Assembly: GCA_904420465.1 (NCBI GenBank)
Contig: CAJFVL010000001.1
Span: forward strand, 1-64,000
DNA length: 64,000 bases
From: an uncultured Clostridium sp.
GTDB lineage: Bacteria > Bacillota > Clostridia > Oscillospirales > Oscillospiraceae
Direction: 5' to 3'
The notes under the pieces are model-generated. The model saw only the letters and a program-made list of their open reading frames with translations. It ran no database searches and had not been told where the DNA came from. A program made the translations under genes and the position numbers. This document shows positions 2,112-10,035 of this stretch, one piece after another. Position 1 is the first letter of the stretch, and every line of letters starts with the position of its first letter.

Positions 2112-2656
2112 ATGAAAAGCAGAAGAAAACGGCTCTGGCTCCTTCTGACCCGAAAGAAGTGGTGGACCGCCCTGGCCTGCCTGCTGGCCGCGGCGGCTAT
2201 GTTCTATGCGGTAAACTTTCCGGCGGTTGTGGGCGTCTCCGCCTCCGCGAGGCAGCTTCCCATCTACTGCGTCCAGCGGGACCAGAAGCTGGTGTCCATC
2301 AGCTTCGACGCCGCCTGGGGCAACGAGGACACCCAGCAGCTCATCGACATTTTGTCCCGGTACGGCGTCACCGCCACCTTCTTTGTGGTGGGGGACTGGG
2401 TGGACAAATACCCCGAATCGGTCAAGGCCCTCCACGACGCGGGCCACGAGGTGATGAACCATTCCAACACCCACGCCCACTACCCCCAGCTGTCCGCCCA
2501 GGAGATCACGGCCGACCTGGAGGCCTGCAACGACAAGATTGAGGCGGTCACCGGCGTGCGCCCCACTCTGGTCCGCCTGCCTTATGGGGACTATGACGAC
2601 AAATCCATCAACGCGGTGCGTTCCATCGGCATGGAACCCATCCAGTGGGATGTGGA
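2112..2656 (+). pseudogene. Sporulation-type polysaccharide deacetylase (PdaB-like), 5' fragment interrupted by the mobile element
   Basis: SISFDAAWGNEDTQQLIDILSRYGVTATFFVVGDWVDKYPESVKALHDAGHEVMNHSNTHAHYPQ (NodB domain) up to IQWDVD; the ORF then runs into unrelated sequence to 2804. Confidence 0.92.
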
Positions 2657-2677
2657 TGCGCCGAACACCGCTTCAAG
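2642..2677 (+). other. Deduced attL: host half CCAGT-N8-GA plus element half GA-N14-CTTCAAG
   Basis: ccagtgggatgtgGAtgcgccgaacaccgcttcaag; partner half-site is found at the right junction. Confidence 0.82.
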
Positions 2678-2857
2678 CCTCCGCAGCAGAAAGCTTTCCG
2701 CCATTCTCCGCGGCAGCCGGTCGGGCGGTCCAGGTCTCCTGGTTTTCGCGCCGCATCCAGACTTTAATATTTTTTGTCATTTATATAATTTTCTTAATAA
2801 ATGAAAGCTAAATTTCATAATTATTTCAAAAATATTCTGGACTTCCAAAAAATAGGT

Positions 2858-2887
2858 TGCATTGCCCCAGGTAAATGCAGTACAATA
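2858..2887 (+). promoter_or_regulatory. Putative promoter for the TAXI/TRAP operon (TTGCAT-N18-TACAAT)
   Basis: -35/-10-like hexamers upstream of the lipoprotein gene. Confidence 0.45.
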
Positions 2888-2952
2888 ACAATGTCCAGTA
2901 GCTACACCCAGCGCAGCCATACCTAATATGGAAAGATATGGAGGAATTTGAA

Positions 2953-4014
2953 ATGAAGAAAACACTTGCATTGGTTCTCGCTACTGCCATGACCCTGTCC
3001 CTGGCTCTGTCCGGCTGCAGCACCAGCACCACCGGAGGCTCCGCATCTTCCGGCGGAGGCTCGTCCTCCTCGGGCGGCGGCAGCTCTGTCTCCTCCAGCG
3101 GCAGTGAGTCCGGCCTGACTCCCAAGGACGGCGGCACCCGCCTGACTTTCACCACCGGCGGCGAGACTGGCACCTATTACGCCTTCGGCAACGTCATCGG
3201 CAACAAGGTGGGCGACCTGACCAGCACCTCCATCACCACTGTGGCCTCCGGCGGCTCCGCCGCCAACATCCAGTCCATGGACCGTGGGGACGCCCAATTG
3301 GGCTTCGTCCAGTCCGACGTCATGGTGTATGCCTATAACGGCGAGCGCACCTTTGCCGAAAACGGCGCGGTGACCGGCTTCTCCACCGTAGCCAACCTGT
3401 ACATGGAGCAGGTCCAGATCGTCACCCTGGACCCCGAGATTAAAACCGTGGCCGACCTGGAGGGCAAGCGGGTCTCGGTAGGCGCCGCCGGCTCCGGCGT
3501 CTACTTCAATGCGGTGGATGTGCTGGGCATCTATGGCCTGGACATTGAGGCCGACATCACCCCCACCTATCAGGACTTCTCCAACTCCGCCGAGGCTCTG
3601 AAGGACGGCCAGATTGACGCCGCCTTCATCGTGGCCGGCGCTCCCACCACCGCCATTACCGACCTGGCTGCGGGCCGTGACGTCTATCTGGTCAGTCTGG
3701 ACCAGGAGCACATTGACGCCCTGATCGAGTCCTCCCCCTACTACAGCGCCAACACCATCTCTCAGGATGTGTACGGCACTGCGGAGGACTGCACCACCGT
3801 GGCCGTGGGCGCCGTGGTCATCGCCCGGGACGATGTGTCCGAGGCCGATGTGTACAACTTCCTGTACGGCACCTTCGAGGATATCCCCAACCTGTCCCAC
3901 GGCAAAGCCGCTGAGCTGGACCTGGACTTTGCCGCCTCTGTCACTTCCATCGGCTATCACCCCGGCGCCGTGGCCTACTTCGCGGATAAGGGCATTACCG
4001 TCCCCGCCAAGTAA
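2953..4014 (+). CDS. TAXI family TRAP transporter solute-binding lipoprotein
   Basis: Lipobox LALSGCS; LTFTTGGETGTYYAFGNVIGNKV ... GSGVYFNAVDVL typical of TAXI receptors; SD ggagg before ATG 2953. Confidence 0.92.
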   Translation: MKKTLALVLATAMTLSLALSGCSTSTTGGSASSGGGSSSSGGGSSVSSSGSESGLTPKDGGTRLTFTTGGETGTYYAFGNVIGNKVGDLTSTSITTVASGGSAANIQSMDRGDAQLGFVQSDVMVYAYNGERTFAENGAVTGFSTVANLYMEQVQIVTLDPEIKTVADLEGKRVSVGAAGSGVYFNAVDVLGIYGLDIEADITPTYQDFSNSAEALKDGQIDAAFIVAGAPTTAITDLAAGRDVYLVSLDQEHIDALIESSPYYSANTISQDVYGTAEDCTTVAVGAVVIARDDVSEADVYNFLYGTFEDIPNLSHGKAAELDLDFAASVTSIGYHPGAVAYFADKGITVPAK

Positions 4015-4189
4015 GCTTCCGCTCCCGGGCAGGGCGTGCGGCGCAGATGTCTGACCGGGCGGCCTTGGAGGACTTTCCCCCTGGGCCGCCCGGTTTTATC
4101 AATCCCGGGGAGCACCGCTTCCTCGCTCCCGGGACTGCGCGGCCGCTGGTCCGCGAGCCAAACAGGAGAAACGGGAGAAAGGAGATCTT

Positions 4190-6211
4190 ATGGAACCCAA
4201 CGACAAGGAGAGAACCGCAGCGTCTGACACAACTCAGCATATTGACGTCGACGTCGGCACCATGGCCGACGTGGAAGCGGTCATGAAAAAATATGACCGT
4301 GAATCCAACACCCGCATCTGGGAGGGGAAGCCCGGCCTGGTTGTGCGTATTCTCGGCATTGCATTTTCCTGTTACTGCATTTTCTCTACACTGAAAGGCT
4401 GGCCCACCCTGGCTGAGCAGAAGCTGAACATCTTTCTGGGGCTGATCCTCATCATGGGCTATCTGCACTATCCCATTCGGAAGGGCCATGTCAAGGTCAA
4501 TTCCCTGCCCTGGTACGACATTGTCATTATGCTGGTGGGCGCCTTCCCCTTTTTCTATTTTGCATATAACGCCAACGACATCATCTCCAAGGCAATTGCC
4601 ACCACCGATGACATCCGGATGGTAATTCTGGCCATTGTCGGCATCCTGGCCATGATGGAGCTGTGCCGCCGCTGCGTGGGACTCCCCATTCTATGTGTGC
4701 TGGGGGTGCTGCTGATCTATACCTTCAGCAATGTCCGCTTCGGCAAGGCCATTTACGACCTGTTTTACTCCACCTCCGGCATCATGGGCACCCCCGTCAA
4801 CGTCTGCCAGAAGTTCATCGTGGTGTTCATCATCTTCGGCGCATTCCTGGAGCGGACTGGCATCTCCACCTTCTTCATCAATCTGGCCAACTGCCTGTGC
4901 GGCTCGGCAGCCGGCGGCCCGGCCAAGGTGGCCGTCATCGCCAGCGCGCTGGAGGGCATGGCCTCCGGCTCCTCGGTGGCCAACACCGTGGGTTCCGGCT
5001 CGGTGACCATCCCCCTGATGAAGCGGACCGGCTACAAGCCCGAATTTGCCGGCGCCGTGGAGGCGGCCGCCTCCACCGGGGGCCAGATCATGCCCCCCAT
5101 CATGGGCGCCGCCGCTTTCCTGATGGCCGAGTATATGGGAATTCCCTATATCACCGTGGCCGTCAAGGCCATCCTGCCCGCTGTGCTGTACTTCACCGGC
5201 ATCTATATCGCCGTCCATCTGGAGGCCAAGAAGCTGGGCCTGCGGGGGATTCCCCGCAGTGAACTGCCCCGTTTTACCAAGCTGCTGCCCAAAATCTACC
5301 TGCTGATGCCCCTGGTGGTGCTGGTGGTGCTGGTCTCCGGACAATTCCGCACCATGCAGTGGGCCGCCTCCGTGGCCATCCTGTGTGCCGTGGCTGCCGG
5401 CCTGCTGAACAATGTTGTGAACAAGGCAACCGGCATCAGCGAGCCCAGCGAGCAATTCACCGTCGCCAAATTCTTTGACGCCCTGGAGGCGGGCGGCAAG
5501 AGCTCGGTCACCGTGGCTGTGGCGTGTTCTGTGGCCGGCCTGATTGCCGGCTGCATCACCACCACCGGACTGGCCTCCACCCTGATCACTGCCATCGTCA
5601 AAATTTCCGGCGGGCAGGCCATTGTCGCCCTGTTCCTCACCATGGTGTGCTGCATCGTTCTGGGCATGGGCGTACCCACCACCGCCAACTTCTGCATCAT
5701 GGCATCCACCTGCGCCCCCATTCTGATCGACAACCGCATCGGCATCGAGCCGATTGCCGCCTATTTCTTTGTGTTCTACTTCGGCATCGTGGCCGACATC
5801 ACCCCGCCCGTGGCTCTGGCCGCCTATGCCGGCTCCGCCATTGCCAAGTCCTCGCCCATGAAGACGGCTCTCAACGCCACCCGATTGGCCATCGCCGCCT
5901 TCATTGTGCCGTATATCTTCGCTTTCAGTCCCACTATGCTGTTTGTGTTTCCGGAAGGCACCTCCGCCCTCTTTGAGGTCCTTCAGGTTATTCAAATCTG
6001 TATCAGCTCCTTCCTGGGGATTTTCGGCGTTGCCACCGCACTGAACGGCTTTTTGTACCGGCCCATCAATCCTCTGTTCCGCGTCATTCTGGCTGTCGGC
6101 GGCGTCGGCATGATGGTCCCCGGAACCATCACCGACATCGTAGGCCTGATTTTAGTGGGCGGCGTCTATTTCCTGCAGCGCGCAGGAGCCAAAAAGGCAG
6201 CTCAGGCTTGA
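4190..6211 (+). CDS. TRAP transporter fused permease (4TM+12TM)
   Basis: 673 aa polytopic protein; GGQIMPPIMGAAAFLMAEYMGIPY and GMGVPTTANFCIMASTCAPIL motifs; SD gaaaggag. Confidence 0.93.
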   Translation: MEPNDKERTAASDTTQHIDVDVGTMADVEAVMKKYDRESNTRIWEGKPGLVVRILGIAFSCYCIFSTLKGWPTLAEQKLNIFLGLILIMGYLHYPIRKGHVKVNSLPWYDIVIMLVGAFPFFYFAYNANDIISKAIATTDDIRMVILAIVGILAMMELCRRCVGLPILCVLGVLLIYTFSNVRFGKAIYDLFYSTSGIMGTPVNVCQKFIVVFIIFGAFLERTGISTFFINLANCLCGSAAGGPAKVAVIASALEGMASGSSVANTVGSGSVTIPLMKRTGYKPEFAGAVEAAASTGGQIMPPIMGAAAFLMAEYMGIPYITVAVKAILPAVLYFTGIYIAVHLEAKKLGLRGIPRSELPRFTKLLPKIYLLMPLVVLVVLVSGQFRTMQWAASVAILCAVAAGLLNNVVNKATGISEPSEQFTVAKFFDALEAGGKSSVTVAVACSVAGLIAGCITTTGLASTLITAIVKISGGQAIVALFLTMVCCIVLGMGVPTTANFCIMASTCAPILIDNRIGIEPIAAYFFVFYFGIVADITPPVALAAYAGSAIAKSSPMKTALNATRLAIAAFIVPYIFAFSPTMLFVFPEGTSALFEVLQVIQICISSFLGIFGVATALNGFLYRPINPLFRVILAVGGVGMMVPGTITDIVGLILVGGVYFLQRAGAKKAAQA

Positions 6212-6224
6212 ACCAATCTCATTC

Positions 6225-6262
6225 AAAAACAGACGGGATTTTTATGATCCCGTCTGTTTTTT
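6225..6262 (+). terminator. Terminator after the TRAP permease
   Basis: aaaaacagacgggat-N7-atcccgtctgttttt. Confidence 0.9.
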
Positions 6263-6339
6263 CGCGCCGTCCCGCAAGCCAAGCCTGCCCCGACTCTATG
6301 GGTCAAATCAGCAGGGCCTTTTCAGGACAAAAGGACCTG

Positions 6340-7800
6340 CTATACATTCCAGCAAATACTTACCGTCTCTCCTTTCAGACGGATGGATCGGATCAGGTTA
6401 CGGGCCACCAGTTTTTTCCCCTCAAAATCCAGTCCCCGAAAATCAATATGCCCAACCAGTGCAGCGTTCAGATTTCTCTCCCGCTCCGCCAGCAGTTCTC
6501 TCCTCTCCCGGTCCAGCCGGCTGATTTCTTCTTCCAGATACCGGGCGGTAAGCACGCCGCCCGCGGCAACAGCTTGAACCAGCCGTTCAATTCTCTCGTC
6601 AATCCGGGACAGCCTCTCTTCCCACTCCTGCCCGCCCTCATCCGGGAGGCGTTCCGGCGGACACTGGTCCAGCAGCTTGACAATCTCCTGTTCCACCGCC
6701 TGCTCCAGTTCCCTGAGGTCAAGGGAGTGCCTTGCATTACAGACGCCCAGATTGGACCGTCCGCTGCACAGCAGATAATATTTTTGGTCAAGCAGATTGA
6801 TTTTGATGGCATAGCCGCAGTCTCCGCACTTCAGCAGTCCGGACAGCCAGCTGTGCCTGCCCGCCGCGGACCGGCTGATCTGCCGGTTCCGCTCCAGCTT
6901 CCGCTGGCAAGCCAGCCAAAGTCCGCCGGGAACAATTCCCAGATGGTTGGCCAGTGCCAGGTGCTGATCGGCTGATACTGTGTACTTTCCCCGGCTCCGG
7001 TCCCGCTTTCCCACCACGTTGCAGGCAAAGGCGCCCTGAAATTCCCCCGGGGCCTGGGGGCACCGCACTCCCTTGGAGGCAAAATACCAGTACACATCTT
7101 CATCCGCCATAACATACAGTGGGTTATGCAGGATGCGCGACACCGCCGCACTGTCCCAATTTTTGCGTCTGACGCCCGGGATGTCCCGGTCCGTCAGCCA
7201 GCGGGCCACAGTGCCCAGGGACTGCTCCGGCTGTATGTAGCGCTGAAATATTTGGAGGACATCTTCCGCCCGGTCGGTGGGAACCAGAGCAGATACCCGG
7301 CGGCCCTCCGGATCTGTCACCTTTCCCAGCCGGAACCCGAACGGAGCCGGGCCGCCGGGCCACGCCCCCAGCTGAAAGCGATGATAATAGTTGTCCCGGA
7401 CGCGTTCCGCCGTGGTCTCCCGCTCCAGCTGAGCGAACACCATGATAATGCTCAGCATGGCCCGTCCCATGGGGGACGATGTGTCGAATTTTTCTGTGAC
7501 AGACTCAAACTGGACCCCCCGGACCTCCAGCTGTTTCCAAACCTGACTGAAATCGGAGAGGGACCGGCTGAACCGATCCAGCCGATAGACAAAAATTTTT
7601 TGAATTCTCCCTTCCATGACATCCTGCATCATCCGCTGAAACGCCGGGCGCTGGATATTTTTCCCGGAAAAGCCCCTGTCCTGATAGATTTGACGTTCGT
7701 TTCCGGCGGCCGCGGCGCACAATTCAACCTGGCTTTCAATTGACAGGCTGTCCTTTTTGTCCAAGGACTGACGGGCGTAAATTGCATTCATCGCCTCCAA
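6340..7800 (-). CDS. Large serine recombinase (resolvase + recombinase + zinc ribbon domains)
   Basis: N-terminus AIYARQSLDKKDSLSIESQVELC, RDRGFSGKNIQRPAFQRMM, IFVYRLDRFSRSLSDF; CGDCGYAI...C...C zinc ribbon; coiled coil. Confidence 0.95.
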   Translation of the reverse strand: MEAMNAIYARQSLDKKDSLSIESQVELCAAAAGNERQIYQDRGFSGKNIQRPAFQRMMQDVMEGRIQKIFVYRLDRFSRSLSDFSQVWKQLEVRGVQFESVTEKFDTSSPMGRAMLSIIMVFAQLERETTAERVRDNYYHRFQLGAWPGGPAPFGFRLGKVTDPEGRRVSALVPTDRAEDVLQIFQRYIQPEQSLGTVARWLTDRDIPGVRRKNWDSAAVSRILHNPLYVMADEDVYWYFASKGVRCPQAPGEFQGAFACNVVGKRDRSRGKYTVSADQHLALANHLGIVPGGLWLACQRKLERNRQISRSAAGRHSWLSGLLKCGDCGYAIKINLLDQKYYLLCSGRSNLGVCNARHSLDLRELEQAVEQEIVKLLDQCPPERLPDEGGQEWEERLSRIDERIERLVQAVAAGGVLTARYLEEEISRLDRERRELLAERERNLNAALVGHIDFRGLDFEGKKLVARNLIRSIRLKGETVSICWNV

Positions 7801-7806
7801 AGACCC

Positions 7807-7941
7807 TCAGGAACCACATTGGGCAAGCGTGCACTCCCCCTGGCGGCGCCGGAGCTCCGCAAGACTCCGGCGGTGAATCTCCCGGATGCGCGCCAAGCGC
7901 TCCGAATCACATTGTGTCTGAAACACATGCTCAATTTTCAT
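7807..7941 (-). CDS. 44-aa basic small protein upstream of the recombinase (candidate accessory or directionality factor)
   Basis: ATG..TGA: MKIEHVFQTQCDSERLARIREIHRRSLAELRRRQGECTLAQCGS; gaggagg upstream; stop 6 nt before the recombinase start; below the length cutoff of the supplied ORF track. Confidence 0.5.
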   Translation of the reverse strand: MKIEHVFQTQCDSERLARIREIHRRSLAELRRRQGECTLAQCGS

Positions 7942-8154
7942 AACGGACTGAGCCTCCTCTGCCTGTACTCCCTGGCTATCCTATGCAGAGGCCTGTACAG
8001 GCTATGACAGGCAGCAGCTCGAAAATTGCCTGGCCGTTTATCACCTTCCTCTTCATTAATCCGGCACGCGGCCATGCGGCTCCGATACATCGAGCCGGCG
8101 CGGCAGCCTCCGTCATTGAGCATCCCAGAGCTGCCGGCCTCTCCATTTCCGCCC

Positions 8155-8190
8155 CTTGAAGGTGTTTCCCATGGCGACAGCCTGGACTGG
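8155..8190 (+). other. Deduced attR: element half CTTGAAG-N14-GA plus host half GA-N8-ACTGG
   Basis: cttgaaggtgtttcccatggcGAcagcctggactgg; the 7-bp element arms and 5-bp host arms are perfect inverted repeats at equal distance from GA. Confidence 0.82.
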
Positions 8191-8409
8191 AAAGAAATCC
8201 CTGCGGACGAGATTGTCTCCCGGGTCACAGGCAAGGTCCAGCCCGGCTCCATTGTCCTGTTCCATAACGCCGCGCTTCACACGCCCGAGGCACTCCCCAC
8301 CATTTTGGAAACCCTGATTCAGAACGGCTATACCTTCGTCCCCATCTCCCAGCTCATTCTCTCCAGTCCATACACCATTGACCACACCGGCCGGCAATGT
8401 CCGGCATAA
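8178..8409 (+). pseudogene. Polysaccharide deacetylase, 3' fragment (SLDWKEIPADEIVSRVTGKVQPGSIVLFHNAALHTPEALPTILETLIQNGYTFVPISQLI)
   Basis: Exact continuation of the NodB domain begun at 2112-2656, in frame after joining at the GA dinucleotide. Confidence 0.92.
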
Positions 8410-8769: not shown

Positions 8770-10035
8770 ATGTCAGAAATTACAAAAATGCTCGCTGGCC
8801 ACTCTATCCCAAAGGTGGCCAAAGTCCGCCAGACCTTCAACAATGACGTGCTGGAGGATGTTGAGGGGACTCTTCTGCGGGGTCTGGAGGAATCCTGCGC
8901 CCCCATCAAGCCCGGCGCCCGCATCGCCATCACCTGCGGCAGCCGGGGTATCGACCAGTATGTCCTTCTGATCAAGACAGTGGTTGCCTTTGTCAAGTCC
9001 AAGGGCGGACAGCCTATTCTGATCCCCTCCATGGGCAGCCACGGCGGCGCCACCGCCGAGGGTCAGACCGAGGTGCTCCGCCGCTACGGCATCACAGAGG
9101 AATCTGTGGGCGCCCCTGTGGTCTCCTCCATGGAGGTCAAGGAGATCGGCCGCACCCCGAAGGGCCTGCCCGTCTACATCGACAAGAATGCCTGTGAGGC
9201 CGACGGCATTATCCTGGTCAACCGCGTCAAGCCCCACACCTCTTTCCGCGGCCGGCATGAGAGCGGCCTGCTGAAGATGCTGGCCATCGGCCTGGCCAAG
9301 CAGAAGGGCGCCGAAATGACCCACTTCCTCCGCTTTGAGAACATGGCGGAAAATATCATCGCCGTGGGCTCTATCGGAGTTGAGAAGCTGAATATTCTGT
9401 GCGGCGTGTGCACGGTGGAAAACGGCTACGGCCATGTGGCCGAGCTTCATGTGCTCCGCAGAGAGGAAATTCTGACCAAGGAGCCCGAGTACCTCCAGTC
9501 CGCCTGGAAGCGGATGCCCCGGATTGCGTTGGATACCATCGACCTGCTGGTGGTCAACGAGATCGGCAAGGAGATCAGCGGCACCGGCATGGACACCAAT
9601 ATTATCGGCCGCTTCCACACCCAGGCCGCCTCCGGCGGTCCCGAGACCATAAAGCTGGGCGTTCTCAATGTCACCGAGAAATCCGAGGGCAACGCCAACG
9701 GCATGGGTCTGGCCGATTTTATGCCCAAGCACATGTATGACGATGTGGACTTTGAGGCCGTGTATGTCAACACCCTCACCTCCACCGAGCCCAACAGCTC
9801 TCGGATGCCCATGGTGCTGGCCAACGACCGAGAGGTTTTCCAGGCCGGCGTCAAGCTCTGCGGCCAGATTAACGAGGATGACGTCCGCCTGGTCATCATC
9901 CGCAGCACCAAGTATCTGGACGAGGTCTATATGTCTGAGGCCGCGGTCAAGGCCGCGGTGATGCCTGTGGAAGTGGTAAGCGACTATCAGGAGGTTCCCT
10001 TCGACGAAAACGGCAACCTGACCCTGTTCCGCTGA
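8770..10035 (+). CDS. LarA-like (DUF2088, nickel-dependent hydroxyacid racemase-type) protein
   Basis: GSHGGATAEGQ, VNRVKPHTSFRGRHESGLLKMLAIGLAKQKGAEMTH resemble the His/Lys Ni-pincer regions of LarA. Confidence 0.8.
   Translation: MSEITKMLAGHSIPKVAKVRQTFNNDVLEDVEGTLLRGLEESCAPIKPGARIAITCGSRGIDQYVLLIKTVVAFVKSKGGQPILIPSMGSHGGATAEGQTEVLRRYGITEESVGAPVVSSMEVKEIGRTPKGLPVYIDKNACEADGIILVNRVKPHTSFRGRHESGLLKMLAIGLAKQKGAEMTHFLRFENMAENIIAVGSIGVEKLNILCGVCTVENGYGHVAELHVLRREEILTKEPEYLQSAWKRMPRIALDTIDLLVVNEIGKEISGTGMDTNIIGRFHTQAASGGPETIKLGVLNVTEKSEGNANGMGLADFMPKHMYDDVDFEAVYVNTLTSTEPNSSRMPMVLANDREVFQAGVKLCGQINEDDVRLVIIRSTKYLDEVYMSEAAVKAAVMPVEVVSDYQEVPFDENGNLTLFR

Follow-up and report, generated by a model that had tools for sequence, protein, structure and literature searches.

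An interrupted pdaB-like gene

The DNA considered here, called the window, is a stretch of 64,000 nucleotides from contig CAJFVL010000001.1 of an uncultured Clostridium sp. of the Oscillospiraceae (assembly GCA_904420465.1). Near its left end, a polysaccharide deacetylase gene is split in two by an element of 5,521 bp, which runs from one GA dinucleotide (positions 2655-2656) to another (8176-8177). The element contains a large serine recombinase (LSR), a small open reading frame (ORF), a TAXI-type protein and a permease (Table 1). When its two flanks are joined at GA, an unbroken pdaB-like reading frame of 258 amino acids results, and the codon found to be split is that of Asp182, in the context ...IQWDV-D-SLDWK.... 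Against TIGR02764, the profile of sporulation protein PdaB, the 5' part aligns with positions 2-146 and the 3' part with positions 129-191; each alone scores below the curated cut-off of this profile, as expected since each is only half a gene. In the split state, the frame of the 5' half continues into the element and reaches a false stop at 2804. Judged by sequence, the target is a predicted pdaB-like sporulation deacetylase gene (spore cortex) in a spore former of the gut type, interrupted to the exact base by a mobile island, and precise excision would restore this sporulation gene in frame. No phage structural genes were found among the ORFs of the window element, and its assignment to the prophages was rejected on that ground.

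Table 1. Features of the split pdaB-like locus and its element, with positions in the window
Feature	Position	Strand	Evidence
5' half of pdaB-like gene (residues 1-181 + GA of codon 182)	2112..2656	+	PF01522 1.5e-36; TIGR02764 (spore_ybaN_pdaB) E 3.4e-38
attL, left attB half-site (gene side), TCCAGTGGGATGTG	2641..2654	+	
GA core of attL	2655..2656	+	left junctions GA 35/35
attP half-site, element side of attL, TGCGCCGAACACCGCTTCAAG	2657..2677	+	symmetric with 8155-8175; family half-site consensus nccntncnaaaCagnTtcAAg
Cargo: TAXI-type TRAP solute-binding lipoprotein	2953..4014	+	TIGR02122 8.6e-74, above cut-off
Cargo: TRAP transporter fused permease	4190..6211	+	TIGR02123 5.7e-177, above cut-off
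Large serine recombinase	6340..7791	-	PF00239, PF07508, PF13408 above cut-off
44-aa ORF directly upstream of recombinase, candidate recombination directionality factor	7807..7941	-	
Predicted mother-cell promoter, GTCATAGC-N15-CATAGGAT	7978..8008 (8008-7978; CATAGGAT box 7978-7985)	-	motif enrichment
attP half-site, element side of attR, CTTGAAGGTGTTTCCCATGGC	8155..8175	+	
GA core of attR	8176..8177	+	right junctions GA 36/36
attR, right attB half-site (gene side), CAGCCTGGACTGGA	8178..8191	+	
3' half of pdaB (residues 182-258 + stop), without own start codon	8176..8409	+	TIGR02764 E 1.1e-15

Attachment sites and the GA core

A sequence-only reading of the window had deduced attP and attB sites with symmetric half-sites around a GA core. 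The strings on which it was built each occur once, CCAGTGGGATGTGGA at 2642, GATGCGCCGAACACCGCTTCAAG at 2655, CTTGAAGGTGTTTCCCATGGCGA at 8155 and GACAGCCTGGACTGG at 8176, and the inverted repeat of attP (CTTGAAG/CTTCAAG) has the arms of 7 bp, 14 nt from GA, that were described. For attB, the symmetry around GA stands; the arm given as 5 bp is really 6 bp long (TCCAGT/ACTGGA, positions 9-14). At a single locus, symmetry of this kind is only suggestive, since, with centres of 2 bp taken at random, symmetric runs of at least 6 are found at 0.7% of window positions and runs of at least 7 at 0.2%.

Such a modest improbability could mean that the symmetry arose by chance or through coding bias and that the true crossover lies elsewhere, and attB does owe part of its symmetry to codon usage (the Q-W and D-W-K codons). 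We give this explanation next to no credence, given what is found in related insertions. Across 33 reconstructed attP sites, symmetry peaks at GA alone, where a mean of 15.0 of 22 positions match, as against 7.5 at the best unrelated centre; the symmetric blocks lie at positions 5-12 and 16-21. Moreover, when the attB motif at 9-17 is compared with attP, an outward shift of exactly +5 gives the best fit in both halves. For the inner attB-left motif (1-9), the best shift against attP is 0.

The sequence shared beyond GA extends by one base to the right in 5/33 genomes, to the left in 18/33 and to neither side in 12/33, and because this extension varies by genome, GA is the sole overlap common to all. 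Because Asp182 is conserved, the gene side reads GA in every case, and it is the element sides and the position of the attP symmetry centre that speak for the core. In serine integrases, the zinc-domain motif lies 5 bp nearer to the core in attB than in attP (PMC3783163). The sites as reconstructed, with a short shared core, a longer attP and a 5-bp motif offset, conform to this rule. This layout fits the large serine integrase proposed earlier, as do the three Pfam domains above cut-off, which comprise an N-terminal resolvase domain with its catalytic serine followed by Recombinase and zinc-ribbon domains. The GA cores lie in the same orientation, which predicts excision that restores pdaB in frame.

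One codon, many genera and different cargo

Members of the recombinase clade (E <= 1e-133) were found in 35 of 401 genomes sampled from the same family; 4 further carriers, in 3 other families, came from a sample of the order, for 39 genomes in total. In 38 of these 39, spread over 22 genera and 4 families, pdaB is split at codon 182. All 71 junctions (35 left, 36 right) read GA, and when 37 other insertions were examined for different boundaries or another core dinucleotide, the borders and 2-bp core deduced from the window held. The clade recombinase is present as a single copy in the window's own genome. Genomes of the same genus that lack the element have an intact site; over 120 bp, its identity to the rejoined window site is 76-80%.

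What lies between the junctions differs widely. The cargo ranges from 3.3 kb (G289) to about 37 kb (G215); that of G159 (10 kb) holds molybdopterin oxidoreductase, ferredoxin and DctM/DctP TRAP genes, and that of G089 (14.9 kb) a xanthine/uracil permease, a molybdenum hydroxylase and a response regulator. Both orientations of the recombinase relative to pdaB occur among the relatives, and the recombinases are 44-87% identical in the within-genus pairs computed. Host genera are scattered in the recombinase tree, which indicates repeated acquisition. No close relative turned up when genome_contigs and viral_contigs were scanned with sequence seeds, and phage and plasmid records contained only distant LSRs of <40% identity. 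In one genome (G047:C6; L110, L111), the two pdaB halves share a strand, but the 3' half is found 42 kb upstream of the 5' half, which reflects either a rearranged chromosome or a misassembly.

TnpX of Tn4451 and TndX of Tn5397 are serine recombinases that have a GA core and insert at many targets. With an identical core, the element could be a transposon of this type whose low-specificity GA targeting brought it into pdaB by chance, and the PDB matches of the window recombinase include, besides YokA (E 8e-13), a weak one to the N-terminal domain of TnpX (E 1e-4). We consider this very unlikely. All 38 mapped loci lie at one pdaB codon, and the attB halves are conserved over 14 bp and more; on the basis of such single-codon targeting, a promiscuous GA-transposon was rejected. 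A Pfam search also found no DUF4368 in the window recombinase, a domain reported to mark most of the multi-targeting LSR clade (PMC10083194). The GA core is common to both, but the pdaB clade is restricted to one codon of one gene.

The recombinase operon and its predicted promoter

The sequence-only reading was incomplete: it missed the meaning of the target gene, a sporulation-type promoter and a small companion gene. The recombinase most likely starts at the ATG at 7791, which is preceded by GGAGG; the longest ORF begins with TTG at 7800. Among the LSRs compared, the Y-x-R-x-S motif is present in 41/41 and the zinc cysteines in 40/41. At nearly all related loci, the recombinase is preceded by a small ORF of 34-53 amino acids with the pattern MxIxHTHP...R...L......C, and its product is a candidate for the recombination directionality factor that serine integrases need for excision. 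An identification with TnpW was rejected, with no Pfam match and an empty PDB profile search.

Upstream of this operon, the motif ATA-N16/17-CATA was found in 12/30 cases compared with 8/410 control ORFs (p 8e-11), always 46-70 nt ahead of the start; shuffling gave an expectation of 0.3, and other spacings occurred in 0-5 of 30. A CATA -10 box at -18 to -60 is present in 26/30 operons and in 65/410 control ORFs (p 9e-16). Both p-values are somewhat optimistic, as the motif was picked after inspection of these sequences. The spacing is that of the sigma-E promoter consensus, and the motif is predicted to be a mother-cell promoter of the sigma-E/K type. By eye and without a statistical test, a CATA box is also seen ahead of many pdaB genes, which would fit a mother-cell control shared with the recombinase operon.

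Two further arrangements were observed around such recombinases. In G148:C30 (L063), a CRISPR-like repeat array (GTCGCACCCCGCCAGGGGTGCGAGGATTGAAAT) immediately precedes the small ORF and recombinase. A second recombinase clade (~39% identity, ~510 aa; L072, L074, L075) is common in the same family and is likewise immediately preceded by a small ORF, e.g. MTFQGKKITLENLSPVF....

Probable maintenance of the split gene

No stop codon was found in any of 35 left halves. The right halves are open in 36/36 cases though they have no start codon; 35 reach a stop at 77-102 amino acids, like intact genes, and one ends at the edge of the fetched stretch. Within genera, the ratio of nonsynonymous to synonymous substitution rates (dN/dS) of the 3' halves is 0.01-0.32. 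In the pair with the most similar recombinases (G089 and G215, 86.5% identity), dN is 0.008 and dS 0.32, a ratio of 0.02. Although part of this constraint may be older than the insertion, a 3' fragment without a promoter would be expected to decay once dead. Over all pairs, the median of the corresponding proportions (pN/pS) is higher in split halves (0.37) than in intact genes (0.24), a comparison that is not clean because the split set covers more distant hosts. Other sporulation genes accompany the element: spoIVA was found in 33 of 34 family carriers and the sigma-E gene above cut-off in 29 of 34, with both present in the window's genome.

An ordinary site-specific integrative island might also disrupt pdaB permanently and excise, if at all, only occasionally and without relation to sporulation. 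LSR islands often occupy conserved genes, and some loss of pdaB may be tolerated, as no match at E 1e-20 was found in 42 of the 401 family genomes. Yet neither half is broken in any of the 38 carriers and dN/dS is low, the recombinase operon bears a predicted sporulation-type promoter, and a second sporulation gene, spoIVA, is also split in two genomes with an LSR abutting the junction. We therefore regard permanent disruption as an unlikely explanation, if one of some weight.

Different cargo at the same base of pdaB, together with the sporulation-type promoter, suggests that the gene is probably split during growth and rejoined at sporulation. Our favored explanation, which we consider likely, is that of a skin/gin-like, non-phage element that intervenes in a sporulation gene and is excised in the mother cell during sporulation. 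Several observations weigh against it. The purifying selection on the halves may be partly older than the insertion, and the genomes are mostly draft metagenome-assembled genomes (MAGs). One genome (L021, G319:C58) carries the recombinase on a 2.6-kb contig with pdaB uninterrupted at codon 182, the sole such case among the carriers. Two carriers, G151 and G247, have no clear small ORF, and the small protein has no Pfam or PDB relative and no evident relation to known directionality factors. Finally, the strict -35/-10 pair precedes only 12/30 operons, though a -10-like CATA is found in 26.

In known systems (CD1231/CD1234, SprA/SprB, gin), an element is cut out by a serine recombinase acting with a small factor, and a sporulation gene is thereby rebuilt. 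Since the parts found here match this plan, we infer that the element integrates during growth and is excised in the mother cell, a cycle that could proceed as follows. The recombinase alone would insert a small metabolic island at the GA of Asp182 during growth, at no cost because pdaB is dispensable then. Once the cell sporulates, the 44-aa factor and the recombinase would be transcribed under a sigma factor of the mother cell (sigma-E or sigma-K type), and together the two proteins would recombine attL with attR at GA and release the island as a circle. With pdaB rejoined in frame, the mother cell, doomed in any case, could make PdaB. The forespore would retain the integrated copy and transmit the element onward.

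Comparison with known intervening elements

In skin of Clostridioides difficile, an LSR has been proven to work with a small factor under sigma-E control (CD1231/CD1234; PMC5025042), and the plan of SPbeta (SprA/SprB; PMC4191935) is similar. Like the pdaB element with its candidate factor and predicted promoter, skin combines an LSR with a small factor without database relatives and a factor promoter of the sigma-E type. It differs in its target, sigK, and in being prophage-like; in addition, CD1231 is not specific to sporulation, and a separate 72-aa gene encodes CD1234 (PMC5025042), whereas the 44-aa ORF and LSR of the pdaB element appear to form one operon. SPbeta, inserted in spsM (PMC4191935), shares the large serine recombinase, the small directionality factor and sporulation-time excision, the last two being predicted for the pdaB element. 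It is, however, an active prophage in another gene, and its recombinase is only distantly alike (the YokA match noted above).

The element gin in gerE of Bacillus cereus ATCC10987 (PMC5595907) is likewise a non-phage element with a serine recombinase in a sporulation gene that is reconstituted in frame. It is 28.6 kb long, with three LSRs, a 9-bp overlap and a presence in few strains, in contrast to 5.5 kb, one LSR, a 2-bp overlap and 22 genera for the pdaB element; rearrangement is proven for gin (PMC5595907) and predicted here. The element yin in yabG of C. botulinum has an LSR with the same three Pfam domains in a sporulation gene but is prophage-like, with a 14-bp repeat, and known from a single strain (PMC10747680).

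A 2023 paper lists sigK, spsM, spoVFB and gerE as interrupted genes and adds yabG (PMC10747680). In the open-access literature, with subscription journals mostly outside it, no rearrangement of pdaB and no mention of pdaB as such a target was found, and a systematic LSR catalogue does not mention a deacetylase target in its main text (PMC10083194). New here are the target gene, the recombinase clade, the candidate factor, the non-phage cargo and the recurrence across 22 genera. Each of these known cases was described in one or few lineages, and most are prophage-like. With one integrase clade at one pdaB codon in at least 22 genera and interchangeable non-phage cargo, what was a curiosity becomes a general strategy: an island would do no harm by sheltering in a gene that only a doomed cell requires and by leaving on cue. 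Integrase tools could also profit from the dozens of natural attP/attB pairs that share a single GA core and from the candidate directionality factor. A practical consequence is that annotation of MAGs will wrongly call such sporulation genes broken.

A second pdaB site and other split sporulation genes

Codon 182 is not the only occupied position in pdaB. A second insertion site near codon 67 (FDAAWG) is used by another large serine recombinase family (537 aa in G207), whose attP appears as CATCACCC-TG-GGGTGATG. Its loci are L143 (G207), L132 (G215), L138 (G151), L126/L128 (G183) and L129/L131 (G201), and both pdaB sites are filled in G183, G201, G215, G247 and G151. The spoIVA gene is split at about residue 400 in G089 (L148/L149) and G247 (L150/L151), where a serine recombinase abuts the 3' part; in G338 (L152/L153), it is in two pieces (about residue 150) that lie 252 kb apart. 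In the window's own genome, fragments that match the spore sigma-factor profile adjoin serine recombinases on two contigs (L146, G000:C73; L147, G000:C26) and are probably a skin-like split of sigK.

A broader proposal, to which we give about an even chance, is that pdaB serves this order of gut Clostridia as a standing docking port. Two unrelated serine-integrase families would use two sites, in some genomes both at once, for islands that are interchangeable and mostly metabolic, and in each sporulation the gene would be rebuilt once through excision driven by sigma-E/K with a new family of tiny directionality factors. Since spoIVA and sigK-like genes are split in the same genomes, such use may extend to whole sets of sporulation genes. 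Just beyond the element, window positions 8770-10035 encode a nickel-pincer cofactor-dependent isomerase, group 22 (NF052515, E 6e-151).

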